Shown here: piece after piece, positions 15,772 to 30,665 of the stretch | How positions within the stretch are numbered: position 1 is the stretch's first letter | Layout of the letters: each line of letters opens with the position of its first letter | Source: Nitrospirota bacterium | GTDB lineage: Bacteria > Nitrospirota > Thermodesulfovibrionia > SZUA-242 | Direction: 5' to 3' | Assembly: GCA_027021335.1 (NCBI GenBank) | Contig: JALUUO010000042.1 | Span: forward strand, 1 to 49,973 | Length of the DNA stretch: 49,973 nt | The notes under the pieces: model-generated | What the model saw: the letters and a program-made list of their open reading frames with translations, nothing else | Told to the model about the DNA's origin: nothing | Database searches by the model: none | Position numbers and translations under genes: made by a program

Positions 15772-15790
15772 GAAAATGATAATCAATGTC
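15772..15790 (-). promoter_or_regulatory. Putative Fur box upstream of fur
   Basis: GAAAATGATAATCAATGTC matches the 19-bp Fur consensus at 16 positions and lies about 40 bp upstream of the fur start. It overlaps the last two bases of vapC, which points the same way. It implies autoregulation. Confidence 0.78.
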
Positions 15791-16190
15791 AAGTTCTTAT
15801 TTTTCGGATGGTTTTTAGACAGCAATGTTCTTCTATGGGGTTGAAGTCTTTATCACTGTGAAGGAGTGGGACCTTGTGTTCGATTGCAACGGCTGCAATC
15901 ATGCAGTCTATTGGCTTACGGACAGTAATTCCTTTTTGACGAAGGCAGCGATATATTTCTGCGGCTCTGACAAAGGTGCTCTGTGTCATTGGCAGAAAAA
16001 GGAGGAAATCAAAATATTTCTGTGTTGTATTGTATTCTTTTTCGCTACGAATGCCTTGGAGAACTTCTGTCAGTATTACACCACAGATACAAATGTCTTG
16101 GTCAGATACATATTTTTCCAACACGTCTGTTTGCAGCGTTGAACGTCCGGCAAAAAAGTCGATCCATACGGTCGTATCGACCAGTGTCAT
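15789..16190 (-). CDS. vapC: PIN-domain ribonuclease toxin VapC
   Basis: This 133-residue toxin cleaves RNA with a metal-dependent PIN site. The acidic quartet is visible: Asp5 (TLVDTTVWIDF), Glu42 (ILTEVLQG), Asp95 (KPIDCMIAA), and Asp113/Asp115 (HSDKDF). The start ATG 16190 overlaps the stop of vapB (ATGA), the usual coupling in VapBC operons; a longer frame to 16232 runs inside vapB and is not used. The gene is intact, so the toxin is probably active and held by VapB. Confidence 0.93.
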   Translation of the reverse strand: MTLVDTTVWIDFFAGRSTLQTDVLEKYVSDQDICICGVILTEVLQGIRSEKEYNTTQKYFDFLLFLPMTQSTFVRAAEIYRCLRQKGITVRKPIDCMIAAVAIEHKVPLLHSDKDFNPIEEHCCLKTIRKIRT

Positions 16191-16390
16191 TTGGTTCGTC
16201 TGGCGCGCCAGGTGTCGAGATCGCCTTCCCACGATACAGCGCCCTTAAGCTCAAGAATCTGTTTTTGTCGTGAATGTCGTAACAGTTCGTGTAGAGCGTG
16301 ATCGATCAGCGCCCTTTTCGTCTTTATTCCTGTAACCTTCTGACAACGGTCTACCAGTTTGTCATCTAATACAACATTTGTTCGTCCCAT
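16187..16390 (-). CDS. vapB: VapB-type antitoxin
   Basis: This 67-residue antitoxin has an N-terminal ribbon-helix-helix motif (MGRTNVVLDDKLVDRCQKVT) and a C-terminal toxin-binding tail with GAVSWEGDLDTWR, typical of the VapB_antitoxin family. It precedes vapC with a 4-bp overlap. A GGAGG site lies 8 bp upstream. Its promoter at 16416-16443 overlaps an inverted repeat likely bound by the VapB/VapBC complex. Confidence 0.9.
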   Translation of the reverse strand: MGRTNVVLDDKLVDRCQKVTGIKTKRALIDHALHELLRHSRQKQILELKGAVSWEGDLDTWRARRTK

Positions 16391-16408
16391 AATAGATTAC
16401 CTCCTTTT

Positions 16409-16577: not shown

Positions 16578-16681
16578 TTCTGCTCAGAGCAAACCATGGG
16601 AAACCATGGGGCGCAGAGTAACGGGACTAAGGATTTTGGAGTATTAGATTCTCCATTTCTATGTCAGCCGAGCCGCCAGAA
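16578..16681 (+). promoter_or_regulatory. GEMM-I cyclic dinucleotide riboswitch, A20 (cGAMP-type) variant
   Basis: The region fits the GEMM-I aptamer. P1 is TTCTG (16578-16582) with CAGAA (16677-16681). The core CAGAGCAAACC follows. P2 is CCATGG / CCATGG closed by a GAAA tetraloop (16594-16609). Then come GGGGCGCAGAG and ACGGGACTAAGG, a P3 with TGGAG/CTCCA, and TATGTCAGCCGAGCCGCC. GACTAAG with TATGTC forms the 11-nt tetraloop receptor. Aligned to Vibrio Vc2, the base equal to G20, which reads one guanine of c-di-GMP, is A (16588). A20 is the known feature of GEMM-Ib switches selective for 3',3'-cGAMP. P1's 3' strand is shared with the following terminator, so ligand binding should turn the downstream operon on. 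Ligand identity is inferred. I see no convincing promoter directly upstream. Confidence 0.85.
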
Positions 16682-16711
16682 ATGCTAGTTTTAGACTTCC
16701 GGCGGTTTTTT
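16673..16711 (+). terminator. Riboswitch-controlled intrinsic terminator
   Basis: CCGCCAGAA (16673-16681) pairs with TTCCGGCGG (16697-16705) with one A-C mismatch, followed by six T residues. The 5' arm contains the CAGAA needed for riboswitch P1, so aptamer and terminator exclude each other. Confidence 0.85.
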
Positions 16712-16749
16712 ATTGGGCTGAACCCGGAAATCTGGAAGCGAAAAACAGA

Positions 16750-16808
16750 TATAGCATAGAGTATGCTATATGAACAGCATTGACATGATCTATCAAATTA
16801 CATAACAT
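16750..16808 (+). promoter_or_regulatory. Second promoter and perfect palindrome between riboswitch and operon
   Basis: TTGACA (16780-16785) and TAACAT (16803-16808) are spaced 17 bp, a good sigma-70 pattern 51 bp before the first operon gene. Just upstream, TATAGCATA-GAG-TATGCTATA (16750-16770) is a perfect 9-bp inverted repeat that could be an operator. The operon may thus have riboswitch-dependent and independent transcription. Predicted from sequence only. Confidence 0.55.
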
Positions 16809-16858: not shown

Positions 16859-17500
16859 ATGTTTTCGATTCTACAAAATGGTGGCATATTTATGTATGTC
16901 ATCCTGGGAGTTTCGATCGCTGCTCTGGCGTTGTTTTTGGAGAGGGGAGTATTTCTGTTTTTCCGCCTTAATTTAAACACAGACCAGGCTTTTCAAAGAA
17001 TTTTGTCGTCACTCGAAAAATCTAATTATCGAGATGCCTTGGAGGAGTGCGCTAAGATTGAAAAACATCCTCTAGGCAGAATTTTGAAAGCCGGTTTGTT
17101 GAAGTCAGGCAAAAGGGATAAAGAGATCGAACTAGCCATGGAGGAGAACATACTAAGGGAGATTCCATTAGTAAAGGCGAGGATTAATTACCTGACGATG
17201 TTTGCCAATATTTCGACCCTGCTTGGGCTGCTCGGTACTATTGTTGGTTTGATCACTGCATTTCAGGGTGTCAGCAACGCTAATGCTGCAATGAAACAGG
17301 AAATATTGGCCAGCGGTATATCAGTGGCAATGTTTACCACGGCTTTTGGCCTTATTGTTGCTATTCCGTGTCTTGTTGGATATTACATACTGAACAACAG
17401 GGGTGACTACTGGATAGAAAAATTCGAAGAAAAAGCACTTAGCTTACTGAATGTCCTGTCTTCTTTAAGAAAAGAAAGGGAATTGCAATGTCAAGAATAG
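16859..17500 (+). CDS. TolQ/ExbB/AglR-like proton channel subunit
   Basis: This 213-residue MotA/TolQ/ExbB family protein forms, with TolR-like partners, a proton-driven motor in the inner membrane. It has an N-terminal helix (GGIFMYVILGVSIAALALFLERG), a cytoplasmic domain, and two closely spaced helices with the family motifs NISTLLGLLGTIVGLITAF and SGISVAMFTTAFGLIVAIP. These carry the conserved Thr and Gly/Pro residues. A very strong AAGGAGGTG site precedes it. It is followed by two TolR-like genes, overlapping the first by 13 bp. One TolQ with two TolR-like proteins is the composition of the Myxococcus AglRQS gliding motor. It is the first gene behind the riboswitch. Confidence 0.92.
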   Translation: MFSILQNGGIFMYVILGVSIAALALFLERGVFLFFRLNLNTDQAFQRILSSLEKSNYRDALEECAKIEKHPLGRILKAGLLKSGKRDKEIELAMEENILREIPLVKARINYLTMFANISTLLGLLGTIVGLITAFQGVSNANAAMKQEILASGISVAMFTTAFGLIVAIPCLVGYYILNNRGDYWIEKFEEKALSLLNVLSSLRKERELQCQE

Positions 17501-18012
17501 GACGACGCAGGTTGAAAGCTTCGGACGATGTTGATGTAGATATGGTTCCCATAATGAATATGTTTTTGGTGCTTATCCCGTTTCTGCTTATGTCCGCCAG
17601 CTTTTTCCAAATGAAGGCCATAAATACGTCGGTTCCGGTGCAGGCTGAAAATACTTCTGCCGGGTCTTCTGCCGAGAAGGCTCCCAAGGATATAAAGGTA
17701 ACTGTTATTGTACAAATTGGCCGGGAAGGTTTTGATATATCTGCGATTTCGGATTACCTCGAGTATGAAGACTTAAGCAAACTGGAGGCCAAGATAGGTA
17801 AAGTTAATAAAGATGAATACCCGCTTGCCCAAATGGCTGCATACCTGCAAAAAATAAAAGAAATTTACCCGTCCAGTGATACGATCATTATTATTCCGGA
17901 TGGCAGTGTTGTTTACGAGACTATCATTGAGGCAATGGATATGGCCAGGTATTCAGGCAGAGGCGATACTCCACTGTTTCCTAACGTGGTCTTATCAGGT
18001 AAGGTCGGATAG
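17488..18012 (+). CDS. TolR/ExbD-like motor subunit lacking the membrane aspartate
   Basis: This 174-residue protein has one N-terminal membrane helix and a periplasmic domain. The N-terminus, RRRLKASDDVDVDMVP then IMNMFLVLIPFLLM, aligns with E. coli TolR (NIVPLLDVLLVLLLIF). The proton-binding Asp of TolR is Asn24 here, encoded AAT. The periplasmic part includes VTVIVQIGREGFDIS and SDTIIIIPDGSVVYETIIEA, the ExbD-type end. It is likely the non-protonated partner in a motor with the second TolR-like protein encoded 10 bp downstream, which keeps the Asp. A corresponding D-to-N change is used experimentally to disable such motors, so the natural Asn is notable. Confidence 0.88.
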   Translation: MSRIGRRRLKASDDVDVDMVPIMNMFLVLIPFLLMSASFFQMKAINTSVPVQAENTSAGSSAEKAPKDIKVTVIVQIGREGFDISAISDYLEYEDLSKLEAKIGKVNKDEYPLAQMAAYLQKIKEIYPSSDTIIIIPDGSVVYETIIEAMDMARYSGRGDTPLFPNVVLSGKVG

Positions 18013-18022
18013 GAGGTAAACA

Positions 18023-18529
18023 ATGGCCTTAGGAAGCATCGGAAGAAGAAACAGGCAGTTTGTAGCTCCCAGGCTGCATATTACGGCAATGATGGATATG
18101 TTTACAATCATACTGATATTTTTGCTTTTTTCTTTCTCCGACAACCCTGAAACATTTCAGCTGGATAAAGACATAAGCCTGCCGGAATCAACCGCAAAAA
18201 TGGACTATAAAGACAGTATTAAACTTGTGCTGTCTCAAACAAGTTTAAAGCTGAATGGTGAAGTTATTGCGGAGATACAAGACGGTAAGATTATTGGTTT
18301 AAATCCGGCTGAACTTAAAAAATCCAGTTTGTACGAGAGGTTGAAAGCTTACCGGGATCAGATGGCCGATTTTGAGGGTGATGAGCAATCAGAGTCTGAA
18401 AAGCATATATTGTTTCTATGTGATAAACGAATATCATTTAAAACTATAAATAATATTGTTAAGACGGCAGGAATGGCAGGATATCCTAACTTCCAGTTTG
18501 CAGTGCTGAAAAAGGTTACAGATTCATGA
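18023..18529 (+). CDS. TolR/ExbD-like motor subunit with conserved membrane aspartate
   Basis: This 168-residue ExbD/TolR family protein has a membrane helix reading HITAMMDMFTIILIFLLFSF, with Asp25 at the position of the essential proton-carrying Asp of TolR. The periplasmic domain begins DKDISLPES and contains LVLSQTSLKLNGEVI and HILFLCDKRISFKTINNIV, matching the ExbD fold. A GGAGG site lies 7 bp upstream. With the preceding two genes it makes an AglR/AglQ/AglS-like trio. Its stop overlaps the next start by 4 bp. Confidence 0.9.
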   Translation: MALGSIGRRNRQFVAPRLHITAMMDMFTIILIFLLFSFSDNPETFQLDKDISLPESTAKMDYKDSIKLVLSQTSLKLNGEVIAEIQDGKIIGLNPAELKKSSLYERLKAYRDQMADFEGDEQSESEKHILFLCDKRISFKTINNIVKTAGMAGYPNFQFAVLKKVTDS

Positions 18530-18825
18530 AGATTTTAATATGCATTTACTCAGTCTTGGCAATAATATCATTATCTGTTTTTCCTTTAAATTCTGCATCG
18601 GCTAGTGAGGTTGAGAAGAAAAAAAATATCAATGAAGAGTTGCTTAATAGAATTGATTTTGATAATGCCTACATAATGGGACAGACCATTAAATCCGGAG
18701 CGGTTTATCTGTTGCATCGCAAAAAAAACGAGATTAAAAGTATGCTTAAGTATAGAGAACATTACCGTAATGAAATACTGGAAGATTTCTCAATTATGGA
18801 TATGAAGGCCAAAACACGTAAGTAA
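18526..18825 (+). CDS. Small exported protein of unknown function in the motor operon
   Basis: I do not recognise this 99-residue protein. A signal peptide (ILICIYSVLAIISLSVFPLNSA) is cleaved near SASA/SE. The mature part is about 75 residues, charged and helical, with LNRIDFDNAYIMGQTIKSGAVYLLHRKKNEIKSML-type amphipathic segments. The phrase GQTIKSGAVYLLHRK suggests a short periplasmic adaptor. It overlaps the second TolR-like gene by 4 bp and precedes the FHA/AgmX-tail protein by 22 bp, so it is made with the motor and likely binds it. The function is unknown. Confidence 0.75.
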   Translation: MKILICIYSVLAIISLSVFPLNSASASEVEKKKNINEELLNRIDFDNAYIMGQTIKSGAVYLLHRKKNEIKSMLKYREHYRNEILEDFSIMDMKAKTRK

Positions 18826-18847
18826 CCTGGTTGAAAATAAATCTGTC

Positions 18848-21148
18848 ATGAAAAACAAGACAAACAGATTCAGCTATACATACAGAAAAGCAAAAGCAGG
18901 CACGCAAGACGGTTCCGTTATAAAGGTCTATGTGTTCAGGGGAGATGAGTACATAGGCTGGGACTGCTTTTCTAAAACACGTGTTTATATAGGTAAAAGT
19001 AAGGATGCGGACCTTGTTCTTGACGATCCCGGCATCTTGGATACCCAGGCTATTTTAAGCGTTAATGGCGACCTGATGACGATTTTTGGGCAGGATAAAG
19101 GTTGTGGGGTTTCTGTAAATGGTTCACAGGTAACAACATCTATGTTGGAACAATTTGATTTTATTACTATAGGCCCCTATACCCTAAAGGTGAAATTACA
19201 AAAGATCAAAGAGCCGCATAAGTTGGAGCAAGGTGGAGTTAATACACTTTCAGAGCCTGTCTCTCTAAATTCTGATGCCTCGTTTTTAAAAGGTGAGGAA
19301 ACCTATGAAGAAAAACCTGAAGAACCTGGCAATAGCAATAGAGGCAAAGACGCTGAAGTGATAGATGAGCTATTTTCATCAACATCTCAGTTACTGCTGG
19401 ATGGTCCGAGTATTTCAGAGATAAAGCAAAATTCTGAAAATATATCGGAAGTTGTTTCTGAAGATACTTTTGAAAATATTTCTGAAAATATTTCTGAAGA
19501 CATTTCTGAAGATTATAAAGGTATTGATGCTGTCGAAGATGAGAGTGATGCAGATAATCTGCAAGAAGAAATAATATTACCTGACTCTGAAGATGCCACA
19601 AAATATCCGGATAATTCTACTGTTATAGATTCAGAAAACAGTAATCATGAAGACTCTAATTTTAAGTCTTTTCCGGATGAAATGGAATATGAGTATGATG
19701 ACGATGAAGAGGATGATGATGAAGAAGACTTAGTAGGACTATTCAGTCTAAAGGACAAGTTACTTAATGATGAGGCTGTAAATTGTAACCAGGGTGAAAC
19801 GGTTCTTGAGGTTGTTAAGTTCAGGCAGGACACTATCTTTGATATTCAATTCCTTGATAAAAATGACAAGTACTATATTACAACGTCTAACCGTAAAGAG
19901 TTTTGCATCGCAGAGCACAGTAATTCTGATCAGTACTACTTTTATTTTAATAAAGAACAGTTCACCGGTAAGGTGATCGGCATAGAAAATATCGATATAG
20001 CAAATCTATCTAATCATGAGAATCTCTACAATAAAAGAAAAAGTATTTACAGATATCTAATCCCTTCGGAAACTGAAACTTCAGTAATTCTAAGTGATGG
20101 ATATTATGAATACTCCCTGCGAAGGATCAACAAGTATAAAGCCCCGAAAACAGCGGAGATTCCGAAAGAGAAAAACCCTTACTATAAGTACCTGACACGT
20201 TCCGGTGTATTTCATATAATTATTCTGTTTGTGGCAGGACTGTTTTTCTCTATATCACCACCTCCTGAGCCGGAAGAGCCTGAGTCACGTTTTGTTAAGG
20301 TTGATACTCGTCAATTGTCTGACTTCAAGAAAAGAGTTGTTCCTATAAAAAAGAAGCCAAAACCGCAGTTGGCAGATAAACCTGCGAAAAAAACCTTTAA
20401 AAAGCGGGCTTCGTCAAAAGTAAAAACCACCAGGAAAAAAACTGTTTCTCGCTCCCCTAAGGCTGGCGGGGGAAGTAAGAATGGAGGTAATATTGTAAAT
20501 CGCAATGTAAATGTAAAGCAGGCAGGAATTCTTAGCGCTCTTGGCATCTCGGATGGAATCGGTCTTGGGGCTAAAGATGCACTGGCAGCTGTCACAAATC
20601 TTGATGCTGTCCGTTCTTCTAATAGTAAAGGGGCTAAATTAAAAGTGGCTGGTCTTGTTGGCAAGTTAGGAGACTCTAAAGTCGAGGTGCCTTCAGTAGG
20701 CCTTGTCAATACTAAGGGATCAACAGCGGTGATAAGAAGCGCAGGTATCGAGGGTAACGGCAGAATAGCTGCTTTAGAAAAGGGAAAAACCGGGCAAAGC
20801 CAGGTTATGGCAATGGTGTCAGCCGATCTTAGTAAAACTGTGCGTATCCAGGGCGGAATGAGCCGTGAAGCTGTAAAGAAGGTGATTGACCAGCACATGG
20901 ATGAGATAAGTTACTGCTATGAAACAGCTTTGATTGCTGATCCCGCTCTAATGGGCAAAGCTATATTTGAATGGAAGATCCTTATGCCAGGCACAGTAGG
21001 GGAGGTGAGAATCAAATCATCTTCGATTAAATCAACTGATATTCATTCCTGTATTAAGTCGGCTATAAAGTCATGGCAATTTCCTGTGCCCAAGGGGGCT
21101 GAAGTTATGGTTTCATATCCGTTTATCTTTGATGTTGTGGGTTTTTGA
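18848..21148 (+). CDS. FHA-domain, single-membrane-span protein with AgmX/PglI C-terminal domain (GltG/GltJ-like)
   Basis: This 766-residue linker protein spans the envelope. An N-terminal FHA-like domain (about 23-120: RVYIGKSKDADLVLDDPGIL, then SVNGSQV) has lost the usual Ser and His of the phosphothreonine site (LDTQ in place of SxxH). Residues 130-300 are very acidic, with repeated ISE(N/D) units. A second globular region (about 315-430) precedes one membrane helix at about 450-471. Then come PPPEPEEPE, a Lys/Arg-rich TonB-like periplasmic linker, a Gly-rich part, and a C-terminal domain (671-766) with the two cysteines and W-x-FP-x-P of the AgmX/PglI tail. This matches the GltG/GltJ type that couples the AglRQS motor to the outer membrane in Myxococcus. 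Confidence 0.88.
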   Translation: MKNKTNRFSYTYRKAKAGTQDGSVIKVYVFRGDEYIGWDCFSKTRVYIGKSKDADLVLDDPGILDTQAILSVNGDLMTIFGQDKGCGVSVNGSQVTTSMLEQFDFITIGPYTLKVKLQKIKEPHKLEQGGVNTLSEPVSLNSDASFLKGEETYEEKPEEPGNSNRGKDAEVIDELFSSTSQLLLDGPSISEIKQNSENISEVVSEDTFENISENISEDISEDYKGIDAVEDESDADNLQEEIILPDSEDATKYPDNSTVIDSENSNHEDSNFKSFPDEMEYEYDDDEEDDDEEDLVGLFSLKDKLLNDEAVNCNQGETVLEVVKFRQDTIFDIQFLDKNDKYYITTSNRKEFCIAEHSNSDQYYFYFNKEQFTGKVIGIENIDIANLSNHENLYNKRKSIYRYLIPSETETSVILSDGYYEYSLRRINKYKAPKTAEIPKEKNPYYKYLTRSGVFHIIILFVAGLFFSISPPPEPEEPESRFVKVDTRQLSDFKKRVVPIKKKPKPQLADKPAKKTFKKRASSKVKTTRKKTVSRSPKAGGGSKNGGNIVNRNVNVKQAGILSALGISDGIGLGAKDALAAVTNLDAVRSSNSKGAKLKVAGLVGKLGDSKVEVPSVGLVNTKGSTAVIRSAGIEGNGRIAALEKGKTGQSQVMAMVSADLSKTVRIQGGMSREAVKKVIDQHMDEISYCYETALIADPALMGKAIFEWKILMPGTVGEVRIKSSSIKSTDIHSCIKSAIKSWQFPVPKGAEVMVSYPFIFDVVGF

Positions 21149-21220
21149 GCTGTTATAAATTCACCCACTATAGAGACGCAAAGAGTCAATTTTTAAAAAA
21201 TATCTAAAAAGGCATATAAA

Positions 21221-21964
21221 GTGAAATTTAAAGAAATTTTCAAAATTACAGGTATTGTTTGCTTTAGCATCGTGATCTTATTTGGCAGACCTGGTATTGC
21301 TTCTTCTGAGGAAAACGACGGCAATGAGCATGTCTATGCCATACAGTCAAGAATATTTGATCGCCATCATGAACTTGGTTTGATACTTGGATATATTCCG
21401 GATGATGATTTTTATAAGGCCTATCCGGTAGGGCTTAGCTATATTTTTCATTTTAATGAAAACTTTGCATGGGAGGTTATAAGGGGGCAGCTGGTGATAA
21501 ATAATGAGAGGGACCTTAAAACCAACCTTGAAAATAACTTCGGTGTTACACCTGAGAGTTTTGATAATATTAAATATCTTGCGCATACACATTTTATCTT
21601 TAAGCCCACTTACGGAAAAGATGCGGTATTGAACCGAAGAATTATTAATCACGAAGGTTACCTTTTTCTTGGTGGCGGCATTGTCGGATACGAGAGAAAA
21701 TTTAGCAACGGAAACCTTACTACGGAGTCGGCTCCATCTATCAGCTTGGGTGTCGGTAGAAAATACTTTTTAAGTAAAAGCCTGAGTATGAATCTTGAAC
21801 TACGGGATCTGTTCAACTTGAAAGAAGAAGGGAGTGAAAACAATATTTTACTTAGCCTGACAATTGCATTTCGTTTTGATCTGTCCCCAAGAAAAACAGC
21901 TATGGATTCAACGATAGAGAGGTTGAATTACTACCTGAAGAATGAAGATGATAATGAAAAATAA
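21221..21964 (+). CDS. Outer-membrane beta-barrel protein (OMP_myx_plus-like)
   Basis: This 247-residue protein starts at GTG 21221 (weak site). A signal peptide ends near GIASSE. The mature start, IFDRHHELGLILGYIPDDDF, then YKAYPVGLSYIFHFNENFAWEV, is the signature of the outer-membrane barrel family seen in myxobacteria and relatives. The rest alternates beta strands up to IAFRFDLSP, followed by a 25-residue charged tail. In Myxococcus such barrels (GltA/GltB/GltH type) are the outer-membrane part of the gliding complex. It overlaps the next gene by 23 bp. Confidence 0.85.
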   Translation: MKFKEIFKITGIVCFSIVILFGRPGIASSEENDGNEHVYAIQSRIFDRHHELGLILGYIPDDDFYKAYPVGLSYIFHFNENFAWEVIRGQLVINNERDLKTNLENNFGVTPESFDNIKYLAHTHFIFKPTYGKDAVLNRRIINHEGYLFLGGGIVGYERKFSNGNLTTESAPSISLGVGRKYFLSKSLSMNLELRDLFNLKEEGSENNILLSLTIAFRFDLSPRKTAMDSTIERLNYYLKNEDDNEK

Positions 21965-23477
21965 CCTCTGCTATATTTTTTTATTTTTTGTATTAATCTG
22001 TTTTACCGGATATGGTGAAGCAAATACAGATACAGATAAAGAAGACATGCAAGACAATGTACAGGTCAACGCGGAGAAAAACGTAGAAAAAAAGTTAACT
22101 GAATCCGAAATTCAGGAATATTTCAGTAAGGGATATGAGCTATTTGAAAAGGAAAACTACATAGATGCAGCTCCAAAATTCTATAAATACATGAGCCTGA
22201 CATCTCCCGACGAAACCAACTATGAATGGGCATCATTTTTTCTTGGCATTTCGTTTAAAAAAAGCGGCCTCTCCCATGCGGCAGTAGAGATTCTCTCCCA
22301 TCTCGTTATAAGAAAACCTAACCCCAAAATTGTGTCGTACTCGCTTGAATTACTGGAATTAGTTACTCGCACTTTGCCGTTTGACCATGACTTGATTATC
22401 AATCAGGCTGTCTGTGACAGACAGTATGGTTTTGTTGGTGAAAAATTAGAGAATTTTCTTAATTATTACCAAGGAGAATATGATTGGGAACATGGTTTTT
22501 TTGAGTGGGGGAATAACCATTTTGCTGGTATTGTTCCGGGGACATACTATTATTATAAATATTTATTTAAAAAAGCTCTGTACCAAGTCTATAGAGACCG
22601 CATAGACGATGCTATATCCATACTAAAAAAGATTCTTGAGAACCCTGATATTGATTATGGCTTGCGGGATAATGCGCATGCCATGCTGGCCAGGTTGCTG
22701 TACGAAAAAGGAGAGTTTAATAACGCTTACCTACAGTATGAGCAGATCAAGAAGCCTATTTTAGAACAAGCCGAATATATCTTGGAACGGGCATGGGCAG
22801 AATACAGGCAGGGACATACAGAAAAAGCTATGGGGTTGTTATACGCCTTTAGTGCTCCAAGCTTCGAGAATTATTTTACGCCGGAGTACTTCATTCTTAA
22901 GTCTATTATCTATAAAGACGTCTGCCACTATAAGCGTGCAATGAATGTAGTTAATGAGTTTAAAGACCATTACAGGGATGCGTTAGATGTTATCTATAGA
23001 CGCGGTGCCGCGCTTGAAAATCCTGCTATTTTAATGCTTGTTCTCGGTAAAAATAAAATTAACGAAACTTGGAGGTTTATTGAGCTTCTTGGTAAAGAAA
23101 AAACAAGAATATCTTTGTTCCAGGACAAGGAGCTTGTAGAGTACCTGGATAAAATTTATGCCATGCAGATGCAGGAAAGTGTTGAAGCGATTAGATTCTT
23201 AATTGAGAAAGAATACGAAAAATACGCTGATATGTTACTTACGTTTGAAGAAGAAGCAGACCTTATTGCGTATGAAATAGGTCTTGATATGTATGAGCGG
23301 ACATCTCAATATCATTACACCGAGAAGAATTCACTTGGTAAAAATTCCGAAAAGCTCCAAAAGCAAGTTGTTTATAACTTTCAGGGTGAATACTGGAATG
23401 ATGAATTGGCTCAGTACAGCGTATCATTACCTGAAAAATGCAGCTCTACCGAAGAGTGGGACATTTTTTTTAAATGA
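21942..23477 (+). CDS. TPR-rich periplasmic protein (Glt/Agl-type)
   Basis: This 511-residue exported protein has a signal peptide (CYIFLFFVLICFTGYGEA). Helical-repeat units follow, for example FSKGYELFEKENYIDAAPKFYKY-type, ALYQVYRDRIDDAISILKKIL and LLYEKGEFNNAYLQYEQI, consistent with tetratricopeptide repeats. The C-terminus ends FQGEYWNDELAQYSVSLPEKC, a compact conserved tail that I associate with TPR proteins of gliding-type operons. GltE/AglT-like is the nearest guess; exact orthology is not assigned. Cys19 lies inside the hydrophobic stretch (FVLICFTG) and is not a good lipobox. It overlaps both neighbours (23 bp and 4 bp), so it is tightly coupled. Confidence 0.8.
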   Translation: MKMIMKNNLCYIFLFFVLICFTGYGEANTDTDKEDMQDNVQVNAEKNVEKKLTESEIQEYFSKGYELFEKENYIDAAPKFYKYMSLTSPDETNYEWASFFLGISFKKSGLSHAAVEILSHLVIRKPNPKIVSYSLELLELVTRTLPFDHDLIINQAVCDRQYGFVGEKLENFLNYYQGEYDWEHGFFEWGNNHFAGIVPGTYYYYKYLFKKALYQVYRDRIDDAISILKKILENPDIDYGLRDNAHAMLARLLYEKGEFNNAYLQYEQIKKPILEQAEYILERAWAEYRQGHTEKAMGLLYAFSAPSFENYFTPEYFILKSIIYKDVCHYKRAMNVVNEFKDHYRDALDVIYRRGAALENPAILMLVLGKNKINETWRFIELLGKEKTRISLFQDKELVEYLDKIYAMQMQESVEAIRFLIEKEYEKYADMLLTFEEEADLIAYEIGLDMYERTSQYHYTEKNSLGKNSEKLQKQVVYNFQGEYWNDELAQYSVSLPEKCSSTEEWDIFFK

Positions 23478-26400
23478 AATCCATTTTATTTTTTATTATT
23501 ATTTTTCTCTCGGCATTGCCGGTTGTTAGCGCATCTGAGGACTCTTCCGGCAGGTACGAATATCAAAAAAAAGATAAGGCGGAAGAACAGAAAAAATATA
23601 TCGCCAGGCTTACCGAGGATAAAAGAAAGGTTAACCTGGCTATCCAGAACACAAAGGTCCTGATTGACAAGTCGAGAAACAAACGTTATCTACCGCAACT
23701 TTATCTTCGTCTTGCCGAACTGCATATTGAAAAATCCAGAATAGTCTATTTTCTTAGAAAAACCGAGGCTGGACGTTCTGTTAAATCATTGGACCAAATG
23801 GAATCCAATGCGCTGAAAAAACAGGCTATCGAAATATATCAGAGAATACTCGAAAACTATCCGGCTTTTGATGAACGTGACAAGGTGTTGTTCTTTCTGG
23901 CCCATGAATACAGAGAATTGGGGCAGATAGATGAGATGATCAAACAGTATAAGACTATTATTAAAAAGCATAAAGAAAGTTCTTATGTGCCGGAGTCATA
24001 CCTTCTTTTAGGCGATTACTTTTTCAATATGCAGGACCTTGATATGGCTCAAAGGCACTACGAGGAGGTCCTTAAATACCCGGAAAGCGCTGCTGTGTCT
24101 ATTGCGCGTTATAAACTGGCTTGGTGCCATATCAATAATGCGGATTTTGAAAAGGCTATTAAACTCTTTGAGGGTTCTGTTACCAGTGTGGTTCCGGGCA
24201 GAAAAACTGATATTGATACCTATAGAAAAGTTGATATACGCCTGGAATCCTTGGTGGATATGGCATATTGTTACGGCGAAGCCTATAAAGAAAGTACTCC
24301 ACAGGAGGCATTGGCGTATTTTCAAAAATATGCATGGTCGAGACCCGTATACACAATTGTCTTAGAAAAACTTGCGCACAGGTATTTAATCAAGAAAAAA
24401 TGGCATCACGCCGCCGTGATATACCGGGAGTTATCAGAACTGCAGCATGATGTCGAAAAACTACTTGAATATGCACGTAACATTTTTGAATGTGTGCGTG
24501 AAACCGAGAACTTCGAGGATGCCGGCAAGGATATATCTATTATTATAAAAGCTCTTAGAAAGCAAAAATACTCTATACATATTCCTGACGATGAGAAAGA
24601 GAAAAACCTTATCGACTATGAGCTATATGCCCGGGATATTATTACTCACCTGCATAACAAAGCCAGGGATCTAAAGTCAGTGGCAGGATTTAAGCGGGCT
24701 GCCGATGCTTATAAATTATACCTGGATTTTTTTAAGGCAAGCCCTGTGTATGCGGATATGGAACTAAACTATGCTGAAACCCTTTTTTCGGCTAAGAGGT
24801 ACCTGGAGGCAGGCAAGCAATATGAAAAGCTGGCAGCAAGAATGCCCGATCAGGACACTAAAGAGAATAAATCAAAGGAAAAAATTCTCTATAGTGCTGT
24901 TCTTTCTTACTACTATACCCTTAAAAATAAAGACAACCTGAATTATTACCAGATTGTCTACGCCAGAGGAGGCCTAAAGACAACCGGAAAGTCGTTTGTC
25001 GCCTCTTTTCCCTCTTCAGACAAGGTTCCGGATGTACGCTTTAATGTTGCATGGATTAATTATGACGAAGGCAACTATGATGAGGCTATTGCCGAGTTTT
25101 CCGGCTTTGTTGAGAACTATCCAAAGAGCAAGGAGGCCAAGGCTGCTGTCCACCTGGTTCTTGATGCTTTTTATCTTAAGGAAGATTTTGAAGGACTGAT
25201 AGCTTATGGGCAAAAGATTATTCAGAACAAAGAAATCAAAAAAACCTTAAGAAACGAGGTGCAGGAGATTGTTTCCGCCGCGGAGTCAAAAGTAATTTAT
25301 TCGCACACATTAACAGCACTGAATGACTGGGAAAAAGGGAAGAAAGAACTTATTGACCTGGCTGAGGAGAACAGTTCTTCGGCCCTTGGAGAGCAGGCCT
25401 TGAATGCATTACTTGTCTCGAGTAAAGAGATGGGAGATCTAGAGACGCTTTTATCAGCCGGTTCTAAACTGCTTGCTAAATACTCTAAATCATCAAGCCC
25501 TGAAGACACCCTTGCTGTAATGATAGATGTTTCTATAAAGGCTGCACAGTTCAGGATGCTTGTGGAGTACCTGGAGAAGTTTGCAGACATGCTTCCTGAT
25601 AATGCCAATTCTGTAGATTTCCTTTACCAGGCTGCTCATATTCGGGAAAGTTTTGGCCAGTATGCTTATGCAAACAGGGACTACAAACTACTTCTAGGTC
25701 GTTTGAAAAAAAATAGTGATATGCGCGGAAAGATAATATTTGCTATGTCGAAAAATGCTATTAGTCTTGGAAATGATGATGTCGCAATAGCAATACTTCT
25801 TGACAATAGAAAGTACCTTTCAAGTTTGGAAAAAATAAAGGCTGATGCAATAGTGGCGGATCTTTATTTGCAAAACGGACGTTTAAAGAAAGCGCTTAAA
25901 TATAGAAAACGAGCATACACGGCGTATAAACCGGGCTTTGCAGGTAAAGACAGTGCTATCAACCCCCTTATGGCCCGTATGGCATACAATGCTGTAAAGA
26001 GATTGAGTAAAAAATACATGGAAATTCAATTGCAAAACAAGATTGACAACAAAGTTGTAGCAAGAAAGGCTAAGCTGCTTGAAAAGCTCGAAAAAGGATA
26101 CCATGAGGTAATTCAGTACAAATCACCTAAGTGGGCATTGCCGGCATGCTATGGCACATATGAGATCAATAATGAATTCGCGCGTTTTCTAAAAAGCGCT
26201 CCTTTGCCGAAGGAGTTGACTCCGGAGCAGCAGGAACAATACATTCAAATTATAAACCGGAAAGCTCAAGGTTATGTGGCAAAAGCTGAGCAGTACCAGC
26301 AAACATGTTTTGAACAGGCGCATAAGTTGGAAATATGCGATCCTGAACTGGCAGTCCTTTTCAACAAGGCAGCCAATAATAGTTCGGCAGAACGATACAG

Positions 26401-26911
26401 TGCTTACGCCGGCCCGGTTGCTTCAGCAGAGGTTAGAACCAGCAGTTTTAAAGATGAGGACTTAAGAAATCTTCACTCGAAACTTATGAAAAATCCTGCT
26501 GATTTAGAATCCATGTACGCATTGACTATGCTTTATATGGAAAAAGGTGATTTCAGGCAATCCAGCCTTATGGCTCAAAAGACATTGGATGAGATCAAAG
26601 ATAAGTCTGACCCAATGGCAGCCTCTCTTCATAACATAATTGGAGTAGCTTATTTAAATGCTGGTGATGATACCTCAGCAAGAGACGAGTTTAAACAGGC
26701 TCTTGAAATTGATTCTGAAAATATTGGAGCCAAAATTAATCTTGCAGGTCTTTATGACTATTACGGTCATGCAGAAAAAGCAGAGAAGCTTTATAGTTCA
26801 CTTCCTGATGCTGCTGTAGTGGATGCCGCAAAAGAATTGATTCATAAACGTTCAGGAGAGTTTTATTATGCTCGTGTTAAAGAAAACGAGAAAGAAAATA
26901 AGGCTATTTAA
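23474..26911 (+). CDS. Large TPR protein, AgmU/GltD-like
   Basis: This 1145-residue exported protein has a signal peptide (ILFFIIIFLSALPVVSA) and at least a dozen helical repeats, such as YLRLAELHIEKSRIVY, FFLAHEYRELGQIDEMIKQY, YLLLGDYFFNMQDLDMAQRH, VAWINYDEGNYDEAIAEFS and IGVAYLNAGDDTSARDEFKQ. Size and organisation resemble the long periplasmic TPR scaffold AgmU/GltD of Myxococcus. Such scaffolds link inner-membrane motors to outer-membrane complexes. It starts 4 bp inside the previous gene, and its end overlaps the next lipoprotein start by 44 bp. TPR proteins diverge fast, so I give the class, not a strict orthologue. Confidence 0.83.
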   Translation: MKSILFFIIIFLSALPVVSASEDSSGRYEYQKKDKAEEQKKYIARLTEDKRKVNLAIQNTKVLIDKSRNKRYLPQLYLRLAELHIEKSRIVYFLRKTEAGRSVKSLDQMESNALKKQAIEIYQRILENYPAFDERDKVLFFLAHEYRELGQIDEMIKQYKTIIKKHKESSYVPESYLLLGDYFFNMQDLDMAQRHYEEVLKYPESAAVSIARYKLAWCHINNADFEKAIKLFEGSVTSVVPGRKTDIDTYRKVDIRLESLVDMAYCYGEAYKESTPQEALAYFQKYAWSRPVYTIVLEKLAHRYLIKKKWHHAAVIYRELSELQHDVEKLLEYARNIFECVRETENFEDAGKDISIIIKALRKQKYSIHIPDDEKEKNLIDYELYARDIITHLHNKARDLKSVAGFKRAADAYKLYLDFFKASPVYADMELNYAETLFSAKRYLEAGKQYEKLAARMPDQDTKENKSKEKILYSAVLSYYYTLKNKDNLNYYQIVYARGGLKTTGKSFVASFPSSDKVPDVRFNVAWINYDEGNYDEAIAEFSGFVENYPKSKEAKAAVHLVLDAFYLKEDFEGLIAYGQKIIQNKEIKKTLRNEVQEIVSAAESKVIYSHTLTALNDWEKGKKELIDLAEENSSSALGEQALNALLVSSKEMGDLETLLSAGSKLLAKYSKSSSPEDTLAVMIDVSIKAAQFRMLVEYLEKFADMLPDNANSVDFLYQAAHIRESFGQYAYANRDYKLLLGRLKKNSDMRGKIIFAMSKNAISLGNDDVAIAILLDNRKYLSSLEKIKADAIVADLYLQNGRLKKALKYRKRAYTAYKPGFAGKDSAINPLMARMAYNAVKRLSKKYMEIQLQNKIDNKVVARKAKLLEKLEKGYHEVIQYKSPKWALPACYGTYEINNEFARFLKSAPLPKELTPEQQEQYIQIINRKAQGYVAKAEQYQQTCFEQAHKLEICDPELAVLFNKAANNSSAERYSAYAGPVASAEVRTSSFKDEDLRNLHSKLMKNPADLESMYALTMLYMEKGDFRQSSLMAQKTLDEIKDKSDPMAASLHNIIGVAYLNAGDDTSARDEFKQALEIDSENIGAKINLAGLYDYYGHAEKAEKLYSSLPDAAVVDAAKELIHKRSGEFYYARVKENEKENKAI

Positions 26912-28196
26912 GCTTTTAAATATTTTCCTGCCACTGTTTGTGACTGCTGTCTTGTTTAATGCTTGTGGTGGTGGTTCCGGCGCTGGTAATGGCAACGAAG
27001 ATTCAGAAAAAGAGACTCAGGAAGATAAGTGGACACAGTCTGCGATAGGCAACAGTCTTGGCAGCGGAGGTCTGCTTAGCCCGCGTGTAAGCGCTGCAAT
27101 GGGCAGTGATGGAAACATACATATAGCTTATTTTGACGACAGCGACACAAATGCTACAGATTATGTGCTTAACTATATTGTTACAGATATAAGCACTCTT
27201 GGAGGTTCTGCCGAGACTGTTATATCAGTGGACAATACAAGTGCCCTTTCATTGTCCCTAGGGCCTGATAACAGCCCTGTTGTTGCATACCAGGGAGGAG
27301 AGGTTCGTGAGTGCAATAATGAAAAACGCTCTGATGCGATGTTCAGTGTCAGGCAGAGTGGGGGTTGGAACGAGTATACAGGGGCTATTGGTGTGGTTGC
27401 CAGGAATCCGACCTTGCCTGACGGACTTGCAGGTAAAGAGTTGTCTGTGGTTGTTGATTCTGCAGGGTTTATTCATATCGCTTATCAATTCTTTTACGAG
27501 GGTTGTGACGAGCAGAACTTTACATATCCGGACATTATGTATGTAAAAAAAGACCCTAACGCGCTCGCTACTCCAGTTGCTGAGGAGGTTGTTGAGGGAA
27601 ATACATATATAAATAACAGCTTAGGCATTCAAAACAGTGCAGGAACTTACGCCTCTATAACACTGGACAGCCAGGGAGATCCTGCGATTTTTTATTATGC
27701 CACCCTTTCAGACGGAACCACAGGGCTTCGTGTGGCGCGGAAAAAAAATAATGTTTGGACTCCGGAGTGGATAGAGACCGATTGCGAGATAGGTGATATC
27801 AGCGCTGCCAGGTCAGGCGAGGATTACCTGGCTGTGGCTTACTATGTAAAGAGTTGCAAGAACAAAGATGATGCTAATTTATTGCGTTACGCAAAAGAAC
27901 AGTCCTCGGCATGGGTTCTGCAGACGGTGGATGATTCAGTAAAGGCTGGAAACTATTGCAGCTTGGCATTTAGCTCTTCTGGAAAACCTGCTATTGCTTA
28001 CTATGCGCTTGAGAGCTATAGCGGACGCGATCTTAAAGATCTGTATATTGCACAACTTAACGAAAACTCATGGGACCTGGAGGTTGTAGCTTCGACAGGA
28101 GATATAGGACTTTACAATAACCTGTTGTTTGACGGTGAGAGTCCGATCATCATTTCTTACTCTGGCACTGACAGAACGATCTATGCTTTTTATTAA
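26868..28196 (+). CDS. Lipoprotein with beta-propeller-like repeats
   Basis: This 442-residue protein has a basic N-terminus, a hydrophobic stretch and a lipobox FNAC followed by GGGSGAG, so it is probably an outer-membrane lipoprotein. Six or seven repeats follow the pattern G-x-x-x-I-A-Y-(Y/F), about 20 residues, then W: GNIHIAYFDDS, GFIHIAYQFF, GDPAIFYYATLS, LAVAYYVKS, GKPAIAYYALES, PIIISYSGT. This is the layout of BNR/sialidase-like beta-propellers. Catalysis is not implied; it more likely binds protein or glycan. AGGAGAG lies upstream of the start, inside the preceding gene. Confidence 0.8.
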   Translation: MLVLKKTRKKIRLFKLLNIFLPLFVTAVLFNACGGGSGAGNGNEDSEKETQEDKWTQSAIGNSLGSGGLLSPRVSAAMGSDGNIHIAYFDDSDTNATDYVLNYIVTDISTLGGSAETVISVDNTSALSLSLGPDNSPVVAYQGGEVRECNNEKRSDAMFSVRQSGGWNEYTGAIGVVARNPTLPDGLAGKELSVVVDSAGFIHIAYQFFYEGCDEQNFTYPDIMYVKKDPNALATPVAEEVVEGNTYINNSLGIQNSAGTYASITLDSQGDPAIFYYATLSDGTTGLRVARKKNNVWTPEWIETDCEIGDISAARSGEDYLAVAYYVKSCKNKDDANLLRYAKEQSSAWVLQTVDDSVKAGNYCSLAFSSSGKPAIAYYALESYSGRDLKDLYIAQLNENSWDLEVVASTGDIGLYNNLLFDGESPIIISYSGTDRTIYAFY

Positions 28197-28209
28197 GAGG
28201 AGGTATGTT

Positions 28210-29034
28210 ATGAGAAAAAATATTCTTGTGTTGGTTGTTTCATTATTTGTATTTAACCTGTTTTTTGTTATCGAAGAGGTCGGCTCACAGGAGTTTGATC
28301 CAAACGACTGGTTTGACGAGTGTCCTGACCAGCTCTGTGGCGCTCCGCCTACCGGAGGTGTAGGCGGTGGCGGCGGTGGCGGCGGTCCTATTATTGTCAG
28401 TTATGATCTCGGTCCGCTGTTTTCCTTACAGGAAGATATTGACGTTGATGGTGTTGTGGATACAAGAGACAATTGTCCTTATACTCCAAATGATCAAAGT
28501 GAGAACTCGGACGGCGATGACTATGGTGATGACTGTGATAACTGCCCGACTGTGACCAATATCGACCAGCTTGATACAGACGGAGATGGTGAAGGGGATG
28601 AATGCGATAACGATCTTGACGGTGATGGTATCGATAACAGTTCAGACAACTGTATAGCAATTTTAAATACACTCCAGAGTGACTATGATAATGACGGAAT
28701 AGGTGACTCTTGCGATGATGATGATGATAATGATGGAGTGCCGGATAGTATCGATAATTGCAGCAGGGTTTATAATCCGAACCAGGAAAACAGTGACTAT
28801 TACCTGCTTGGCGATACGGCAGGGGACTTATGTGATGAAGACCTGGATAATGACGGCTTTCTGGAAGACGGCGGTCCGAATACCGACTTGTGTCCAAGGT
28901 TACGTACCGATAAAAACAGTGACCTTGACGGTGATGGTATTGGGGATGCATGTGACAATTGTCCCAACATTTCAAATGCCACACAGGCTGACCGGGATCA
29001 GGATGGAGTAGGGGACGAATGTGATGCGACCTAA
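28210..29034 (+). CDS. Exported thrombospondin type-3 repeat (calcium-binding) protein
   Basis: The start is ATG 28210, with AGGAGGT 5 bp upstream; a longer frame from 28129 is inside the previous gene. The signal peptide is NILVLVVSLFVFNLFFVIEE. After a poly-glycine linker come six to seven thrombospondin type-3 units of the form D-x-D-x-D-G-x-x-D-x-x-D-N-C, for example DLDGDGIGDACDNCP and DYDNDGIGDSCDDD. These bind calcium and are common in large surface proteins. There are many cysteines, in CDNCP pairs, so the protein should fold outside the cytoplasm. The end overlaps the VWA lipoprotein start. Confidence 0.88.
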   Translation: MRKNILVLVVSLFVFNLFFVIEEVGSQEFDPNDWFDECPDQLCGAPPTGGVGGGGGGGGPIIVSYDLGPLFSLQEDIDVDGVVDTRDNCPYTPNDQSENSDGDDYGDDCDNCPTVTNIDQLDTDGDGEGDECDNDLDGDGIDNSSDNCIAILNTLQSDYDNDGIGDSCDDDDDNDGVPDSIDNCSRVYNPNQENSDYYLLGDTAGDLCDEDLDNDGFLEDGGPNTDLCPRLRTDKNSDLDGDGIGDACDNCPNISNATQADRDQDGVGDECDAT

Positions 29035-30652
29035 AGGAAATAAAATTCCTCATTTGTTCATCATTATGCTGTTTCTGGTTTATGGCTGCGGAAAAGCTCC
29101 GGATCTTGAAAGAACCCAGGCCCAGACCAAGGTTACGTTAACCGGCTCGTTTATTACAGAGAGTCCTGACGAGATACAATTTCCTGTCAAGGTGCTATTT
29201 GCGATTGACTGCTCGCTCAGCATGGGTGATGAAATACTCGGACAACAGGTGGGATCGGATCCGAACTTTCTTAGAATAGAGGCTGTGCGTAACTTCATTG
29301 ATGAATACAACAGCAACGAAAACACCTCGTTCGAGATTATGCTTTGGAGTAATAACGTGTTTGAATACACAAGAACAATCGATGGTAGGGGCGGCTTTAC
29401 CAAAGATCCAGACGAGCTTAACAGGGTTCTGGACGCGGCACGAAATGATACTACAACTGACTACCTTGGAACATTGACGTCAATTTATAGTGATATTGAA
29501 AGAGATATCCGGAATACTGAGAATAGTGAAAGCCTGATCCGGACTAAGTATATTGTGGTTTTCTTAAGTGACGGAGTGCCCAATACAGGAGCCGGAACTC
29601 AGAGTAATTTTGATATATGGAATCTTGTCGGCGATATCTATGATATGGCGATAGAAAGCGGTGTTGGAAGTTTCAACTTTCACACATTTCTTCTGCTTGG
29701 AGGTTTCGCACCAACTCAATCCGGGCAGGATACCCAAAGGCGTGCTGAAGAGACACTTCAGGGTATGGCGGATCGTGGCGAAGGCCAGTTCCGGCTTTTT
29801 GATACGGCAGAAAGCATCGATTTTATAAATATTGTTGATATGAGGCTGACTGTTGAATATAAGATCAAATATCTGCTCGCCTATAATTATAATGTAAGGC
29901 CGGGAGTAGAGCTTGTTTATGTTGATAGTGACGGAGACGGCCTTATTGACGAGCAGGAAGTCGAGTATGGAACAGATATAAACCTAAGGGATACCGACGG
30001 GGATGGATTGAGCGACTTTTTCGAGGTGTCTGTAAGTTCGCCGGGCCGCGAACTGGATCCGCTCATGCAGGACAGCCCATGTGACTTGATGCCGGATGGT
30101 ATATGGCCTGACACGGACAGTGACGGACTGACCGATTGCGAGGAGTATGTTAAGGGCACTGACAGGCGTGTGCCGGACACAGACAAAGACGGTATTCCGG
30201 ATGGAATAGAGTTTACAATGGGCACCAACCCCCTCGAAATCCAGTATACCACCGACACTGATTTTGATGGATGGCAAGATTGGCTGGAGGTGCAGAGGCA
30301 TACAAACGTTCTTTCGAATGACCCTAAAATAAGAGAAAGATATGCTTATGAATACGATATTAAAGACGAAGGCCTGGTGCCCATAGATCAGGGAACCGAC
30401 ATGCCTTCATATGTGCGGCAATACTCTTTTACTGTATCCAATATTCATGTGATGGAAACAGTCGGAGATACAGAGATCGCTCAGCGGACTTTGAACAGCG
30501 GGGACAACCTTATCCGGTTCTATATTGCTCAGGTCCCGGAAGATAACCCAGACAGCCAGCCTATATTCCGGGTGGCGGAAGTTGTTGTCAATATCGCGGA
30601 CTTTAACAAAGACTTGGTACTTACGCCAACTGACTTCGAATTAATTCAATAG
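29024..30652 (+). CDS. VWA-domain lipoprotein with calcium-binding repeats (CglB-like)
   Basis: This 542-residue lipoprotein begins MRPKGNKIPHLFIIMLFLV and has the lipid-modified Cys22 (VYGC). A von Willebrand A domain follows at about 55-270, with MIDAS motif DCSLS near residue 62, the GTLTS region, and VVFLSDGVPNTGAG. After it come EF-hand-like thrombospondin-3 units (DSDGDGLIDEQEVEYGTD, DTDGDGLSDFFEV, DTDSDGLTDCEEYVKGTD, DTDKDGIPDGIEF). The last 150 residues are beta-rich. In Myxococcus the VWA lipoprotein CglB is the surface adhesin of the gliding machinery; by place and domain this may be its functional counterpart. GTG 29021 is an alternative start. It overlaps the preceding gene by 11 bp. 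Confidence 0.87.
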   Translation: MRPKGNKIPHLFIIMLFLVYGCGKAPDLERTQAQTKVTLTGSFITESPDEIQFPVKVLFAIDCSLSMGDEILGQQVGSDPNFLRIEAVRNFIDEYNSNENTSFEIMLWSNNVFEYTRTIDGRGGFTKDPDELNRVLDAARNDTTTDYLGTLTSIYSDIERDIRNTENSESLIRTKYIVVFLSDGVPNTGAGTQSNFDIWNLVGDIYDMAIESGVGSFNFHTFLLLGGFAPTQSGQDTQRRAEETLQGMADRGEGQFRLFDTAESIDFINIVDMRLTVEYKIKYLLAYNYNVRPGVELVYVDSDGDGLIDEQEVEYGTDINLRDTDGDGLSDFFEVSVSSPGRELDPLMQDSPCDLMPDGIWPDTDSDGLTDCEEYVKGTDRRVPDTDKDGIPDGIEFTMGTNPLEIQYTTDTDFDGWQDWLEVQRHTNVLSNDPKIRERYAYEYDIKDEGLVPIDQGTDMPSYVRQYSFTVSNIHVMETVGDTEIAQRTLNSGDNLIRFYIAQVPEDNPDSQPIFRVAEVVVNIADFNKDLVLTPTDFELIQ

Positions 30653-30665
30653 AGAGGTGAATAAT

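Follow-up and report, generated by a model that had tools for sequence, protein, structure and literature searches.

The window, by which we mean the whole 49,973-nucleotide stretch of DNA that was analysed, probably carries a GEMM-Ib-type riboswitch with an adenine at position 20 (A20) that most likely senses 3′,3′-cGAMP and turns on transcription of an Agl/Glt-like operon of 12 genes. In the proposed mechanism, the 3′ strand of P1 (CAGAA) would, without ligand, pair downstream within CCGCCAGAA/TTCCGGCGG to form an intrinsic terminator; ligand binding would stabilise P1 (TTCTG/CAGAA) and so break the terminator arm, and with the terminator lost transcription would run into genes for a TolQ-type motor. 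The ligand would be made by a Hypr GGDEF enzyme encoded elsewhere in the host genome (G000:C108:83862-85298), the gene of which is coupled to that of an MglA-type GTPase. This reading is built on features found by sequence analysis and comparison: the aptamer, its A20, an overlapping terminator, the operon content, the Hypr signature and the MglA neighbour.

The aptamer (16578-16681, + strand) matches the full length of the Rfam GEMM-I model (RF01051, model positions 1-87) at 16578-16680 with 52.4 bits (E 1.7e-7), well past the gathering score of 35 bits, in the covariance-model search that an earlier note had proposed as a check on its assignment of this element to GEMM-I, and it scores 101.3 bits with a subfamily model, R1, described below. 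The core elements listed in that note are in place: P1 pairs TTCTG (16578-16582) with CAGAA (16677-16681), its outer pair changing on both sides across the subfamily; P2 has six pairs (CCATGG/CCATGG) and a GAAA loop; and there is a CTAAG/TATG tetraloop receptor, as well as the GCC of the 3′ side. Of 200 dinucleotide shuffles of this stretch, 197 fold less well (z -2.42), and across nine subfamily members 89.7% of pairs are kept and 10 pairs show changes in both partners, values that shuffled and slid controls come nowhere near. The GEMM-I feature is genuine, by a wide margin over chance. It is the one Rfam match found anywhere in the 50-kb window, with no second match besides RF01051. RF03167 (c-di-GMP-I-GGC), considered as a better class, gave 45.9 bits, under its cut-off of 59, and was rejected.

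At model position 11 of the Rfam alignment, the consensus G of GGCAAAC, the window RNA has A (16588, + strand), as the earlier note had read it; we take this position to be G20 of Vc2, from which the numbering derives. The window RNA belongs to a distinct A20 subfamily. All four GEMM-I RNAs of the host genome (G000, a 2.70-Mb draft of 121 contigs, 96% complete, from an uncultured bacterium) carry A20; the three outside the window precede a 1017-aa Ig/fn3 surface protein (L081:3789-7048), a 179-aa tri-haem cytochrome (L082:1841-2599) and, on contig C18, no clear gene (L083:2528-2634). R1, a covariance model trained on nine A20 members from G000 and from G001, a relative in the same family, picks up more members, at over 70 bits, in G076, G127, G093 and G153, again all with A20. 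Within the class, A20 is kept in 13/13 high-scoring subfamily members, nine of which trained R1, versus 8/79 of the other GEMM-I sampled in the 92-hit alignment, where 71/79 have G20. The sister genome G001 carries the A20 subfamily and G20 types together, so that drift within a single lineage does not explain the difference.

A20 is accompanied by G as the second base of J2/3 (CGCAGAG), a base never seen with G20 in the sampled sequences (34:14 versus 0:36, Fisher 2e-12, with counts that include a few false pattern matches and a sample drawn in part with R1). In the window RNA, the region at 16612-16620 has CGCAGAG instead of CGCAAAG, possibly a second specificity mark beside A20. The combined signature is common in Desulfuromonadia, where R1 matches reach 93 bits and where one genome (G272, locus L226) has an aptamer and terminator nearly identical to those of the window, before a gene whose 348-aa product contains 12 CxxCH motifs (12-heme cytochrome). 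Desulfuromonadia is a class known for cGAMP riboswitches. A tandem arrangement occurs in G001 (contig C147, L072:2968-3388), where an A20 GEMM-I that has a terminator to itself comes before a G20 GEMM-I, possibly as a two-signal leader for cGAMP and c-di-GMP.

The 5′ arm of the window terminator, CCGCCAGAA (16673-16681, + strand), includes the CAGAA at 16677-16681 that doubles as the P1 3′ strand, and its 3′ arm, TTCCGGCGG (16697-16705), is followed by a T6 tract (16706-16711), the two together spanning 16697-16711. Both arms and the T tract are thus as the earlier note described them, but the pairing is imperfect, with one A-C mismatch (16678/16700) that it did not mention. The shared strand makes the terminator mutually exclusive with P1, the layout that the note had proposed, and the same arrangement is found in 12/12 subfamily members: in their MFE folds the aptamer 3′ end, including the P1 3′ strand, pairs with the downstream hairpin arm, and forcing P1 without ligand costs 6-27 kcal/mol. 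The unliganded fold of the window RNA is the terminator fold (-44.2 kcal/mol). Among members the outermost P1 pair varies (U-A, C-G or U-G), with the hairpin arm usually varying along, and a T-rich tail follows the hairpin in most, being poor in G001_169. Because the P1 3′ strand is also the 5′ arm of the downstream hairpin in all 12, ligand should block termination, and from this layout we infer that the RNA should work as a transcriptional ON switch in the cell.

A promoter-like match (16780-16808, 10/12, at chance frequency) that lies past the terminator and ahead of the first gene could bypass the terminator; on the upstream side of the aptamer, a scan for sigma-70 promoters gave nothing above chance. 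The leader from terminator to first gene also contains a perfect 10-bp inverted repeat (16749-16771), ATATAGCATA-GAG-TATGCTATAT, which might be an operator or a hairpin. On the minus strand (15789-16400), a gene for a PIN-domain protein (15789-16232) lies divergent from the operon and is adjoined by a possible antitoxin reading frame.

The operon (16859-32975, + strand) comprises twelve closely spaced genes, the first three of which encode an AglR/TolQ/ExbB-like proton-channel protein (16859-17500; PF01618, 5.3e-29) and two AglQ/S (ExbD/TolR)-like proteins (17488-18012; PF02472, 2.9e-14, and 18023-18529; PF02472, 4.6e-10). They are followed by a CglF (GltF)-like small protein (18526-18825; NF033764, 1.8e-6), a GltG-like protein with an FHA domain, a linker and an AgmX/PglI C-terminal domain (18848-21148; NF033760, 1.8e-34; NF033768, 101 bits against a cut-off of 40; PF16697/PF00498), an outer-membrane beta-barrel of the OMP_myx_plus family (21221-21964; TIGR04565, 83.5 bits, above its cut-off of 60), a GltC-like TPR protein (21942-23477; NF033756, 1.1e-25) and a large TPR protein (23474-26911; TPR families, with ybgF- and Tgl-type TPR), which may have a GltD/GltE-like role. 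The distal genes encode a 442-aa protein with a weak, below cut-off BNR-type match (26868-28196; PF15892, 5e-4), an MtsC-like thrombospondin type 3 (TSP3) repeat protein related to cell cohesion (28129-29034; PF02412; NF047638, 1.2e-63, below the equivalog cut-off), an MtsD/CglD-like TSP3 protein (29021-30652; PF18884; NF047639, 8.3e-38) and a 772-aa protein without a family match (30657-32975). The family matches bear out the Agl/Glt-like operon of the earlier note, with an AglRQS-like proton channel (PF01618 and two PF02472) alongside GltG (NF033768 above its cut-off), as well as GltF/CglF-, GltC- and MtsC/D-like proteins. The NCBIfam equivalog scores for GltG (119.3 bits, cut-off 650), GltC (90.5, cut-off 450) and CglF (27.9, cut-off 90) fall short, as do those of the Mts group, and we therefore name the proteins Agl/Glt-like, not orthologous.

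Full-length GltG homologues within the class are found only in G000 and in G210/G211 (40-41% identity), the remaining relatives being from Desulfobacterota; this patchy distribution suggests horizontal transfer. A conserved riboswitch-operon pairing was considered and rejected, since no GEMM-I was detected by Rfam or R1, at E up to 1, near any of the GltG homologues fetched from Nitrospirota and Desulfobacterota; the pairing is found in G000 only.

The operon resembles the Agl/Glt core complex of Luciano et al. (2011), who describe it, as a unit without a known function, in bacteria that do not glide, Geobacter among them, and who consider it unlikely to power motility alone (PMC3169522). Gliding is thus a candidate function of the operon, and there is about an even chance that the riboswitch is real and that the operon it controls is the Agl/Glt core complex in its ancestral form, with a role in envelope-spanning transport or surface adhesion and not in motility. 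Such a role would accord with the occurrence of the complex in non-gliders, with the presence in G000 of a single AgmX/PglI-tail protein, such that no GltJ is seen, with the TSP3/MtsC-like adhesion proteins at the operon end, and with the surface protein and cytochrome that follow other A20 RNAs of the genome. Set against it are the GltF/CglF-like and OMP proteins, which go beyond the core, and the MglA-type GTPase encoded beside the putative cGAMP enzyme. The operon may serve in gliding or surface adhesion. The earlier note had seen in the operon an echo of Bdellovibrio Bd0367; this enzyme is a fair precedent for a link between cGAMP and gliding, in that cGAMP affects gliding exit, but the paper shows no riboswitch (PMC9140294), and according to a 2026 review the gliding machinery of Bdellovibrio is unidentified (PMC13104615).

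The genome search for a Hypr-type GGDEF cyclase that the earlier note had suggested returned 12 GGDEF matches in G000, one of which (G000:C108:83862-85298; GHLIGS...RYGGDEF) combines Ser at the PleD D344 position with the GGDEF motif, the pair necessary for Hypr activity (PMC6456294). The enzyme has a receiver/GAF/GGDEF layout, in which the receiver match is weak, and the PDB entry that it matches best is 6d9m, a Geobacter GacA fusion (GmGacA; 1.2e-46, the next being 2.2e-34). The cross-dimer position is occupied by Leu and not by Arg, the residue linked to c-di-GMP output; this is compatible with a bias towards cGAMP, but Leu is not one of the residues tested in PMC6456294. Orthologues occur in 130/231 genomes of the class; among the 30 best, 29 keep the Ser and 24 lie within 1.5 kb of a gene for an MglA-type GTPase. 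The two genes overlap in G000 (TAATG; L084:5863-8300, equal to G000:C108:83862-86300), such that the Hypr-type GGDEF gene is, by its sequence, translationally coupled to that of the GTPase, which matches Myxococcus MglA at 1.2e-68. A 1.5-kb search around the 30 best Desulfuromonadia matches turned up no such pair, which makes the pairing a Thermodesulfovibrionia feature in the sample examined. In a tree, the Ser-type enzymes of Thermodesulfovibrionia and Desulfuromonadia form one clade (96/93), apart from the other readable GGDEF domains of G000. The C108 enzyme is probably the source of the cGAMP that would act on the riboswitch. G000 also encodes a second unusual GGDEF domain (G000:C30:41291-41767, L009), with Asn at the Hypr position (GHFTGN) and a GGEEF motif.

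In a Vc2 background, A20 still permits c-di-GMP binding, and A20 alone can leave a GEMM-I RNA binding both ligands. The window RNA might accordingly be a c-di-GMP or dual-ligand ON switch, in which A20 relaxes selectivity and c-di-GMP from other GGDEF enzymes is the real effector, an explanation that we consider unlikely. The means for it are present: seven of the eleven other GGDEF matches in G000 are readable and carry the canonical Asp, and the Vc2-like pairs G21-C46 and C22-G45 are kept in the window RNA. In Geobacter, the OmcST GEMM-Ib riboswitch responds to both cGAMP and c-di-GMP; there, A20G turns cGAMP selectivity into c-di-GMP selectivity, loss of gacA lowers the expression of GEMM-Ib-controlled genes, and cGAMP riboswitches control multihaem cytochromes (PMC6456294). 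Against this explanation, A20 is invariant in the subfamily while sister RNAs of the class keep G20, and it is shared, together with CGCAGAG, with Desulfuromonadia, where cGAMP signalling is established; a Hypr enzyme is also encoded in the genome. The A20 subfamily and the Hypr enzyme favour cGAMP as the ligand, and the window RNA probably prefers 3′,3′-cGAMP. Across genomes, Hypr presence was not significantly associated with the A20 subfamily (7/7 versus 92/122 GEMM-I genomes, p = 0.13).

That the RNA is a decaying or non-switching A20 GEMM-I copy, located before the operon by chance, is very improbable: the operon pairing is seen only once and the terminator, with its mismatch, is the weakest of the subfamily set (-16.4 kcal/mol), but the match to the subfamily model is strong (101.3 bits), all core bases are kept, P1 is fully paired, and a six-T tract and a strong Shine-Dalgarno sequence lie downstream.

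More tentatively, these elements may form a complete cGAMP circuit that governs surface motility or adhesion in Nitrospirota, in which the MglA-paired, class-conserved Hypr cyclase sets cGAMP and the riboswitch turns on the Agl/Glt machine in G000. If true, cGAMP would for the first time be tied directly, at the gene level, to a gliding-type apparatus, and the Hypr-MglA pairing would suggest a link of cGAMP with cell polarity. The RNA class is already known, the cGAMP riboswitches described in Geobacter acting on electron-transfer genes; the host phylum, the target and the Hypr-MglA gene pair are new. No report of Hypr-cGAMP-riboswitch signalling in Nitrospirota was found in the literature searched, and the cGAMP-sensing ON switch proposed here would extend such signalling to this phylum. 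With the riboswitch, the Agl/Glt-like operon and the Hypr-MglA pair in one genome, the path from messenger to motor is short and directly testable, and following it could show what task the widespread Agl/Glt core complex performs in organisms other than myxobacteria.

The operon is similar to the Myxococcus Agl/Glt machinery in that it brings together an AglR/Q/S-like motor set with GltG, GltC, CglF-like, MtsC/D-like and OMP_myx_plus proteins; in contrast, its equivalog matches are below the cut-offs and GltJ was not found. The C108 enzyme is like the Hypr enzymes GacA/GSU1658, Gmet_1914 and Bd0367 in its Ser at the PleD D344 position, GGDEF motif and receiver-GAF-GGDEF layout, with GmGacA (6d9m) as the closest structure, but its cross-dimer residue is Leu where theirs is Tyr, and its gene is coupled to one for an MglA-type GTPase. 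With Vc2-type c-di-GMP GEMM-I RNAs (RF01051), the window RNA shares the covariance match, the P2 tetraloop and its receptor, P3 and the C92-side GCC, and differs in having A, not G, at position 20 and G, not A, at the second base of J2/3. Compared with the 3′,3′-cGAMP-binding GEMM-Ib RNAs of Geobacter, the host is a member of Thermodesulfovibrionia (Nitrospirota), the ligand is predicted, and the RNA precedes an Agl/Glt-like operon where theirs act on cytochrome or pilus genes. The two are alike in their GEMM-I fold, in A20 and CGCAGAG, with near-identical copies in Desulfuromonadia, and in a terminator-type ON switch placed before surface-related genes.
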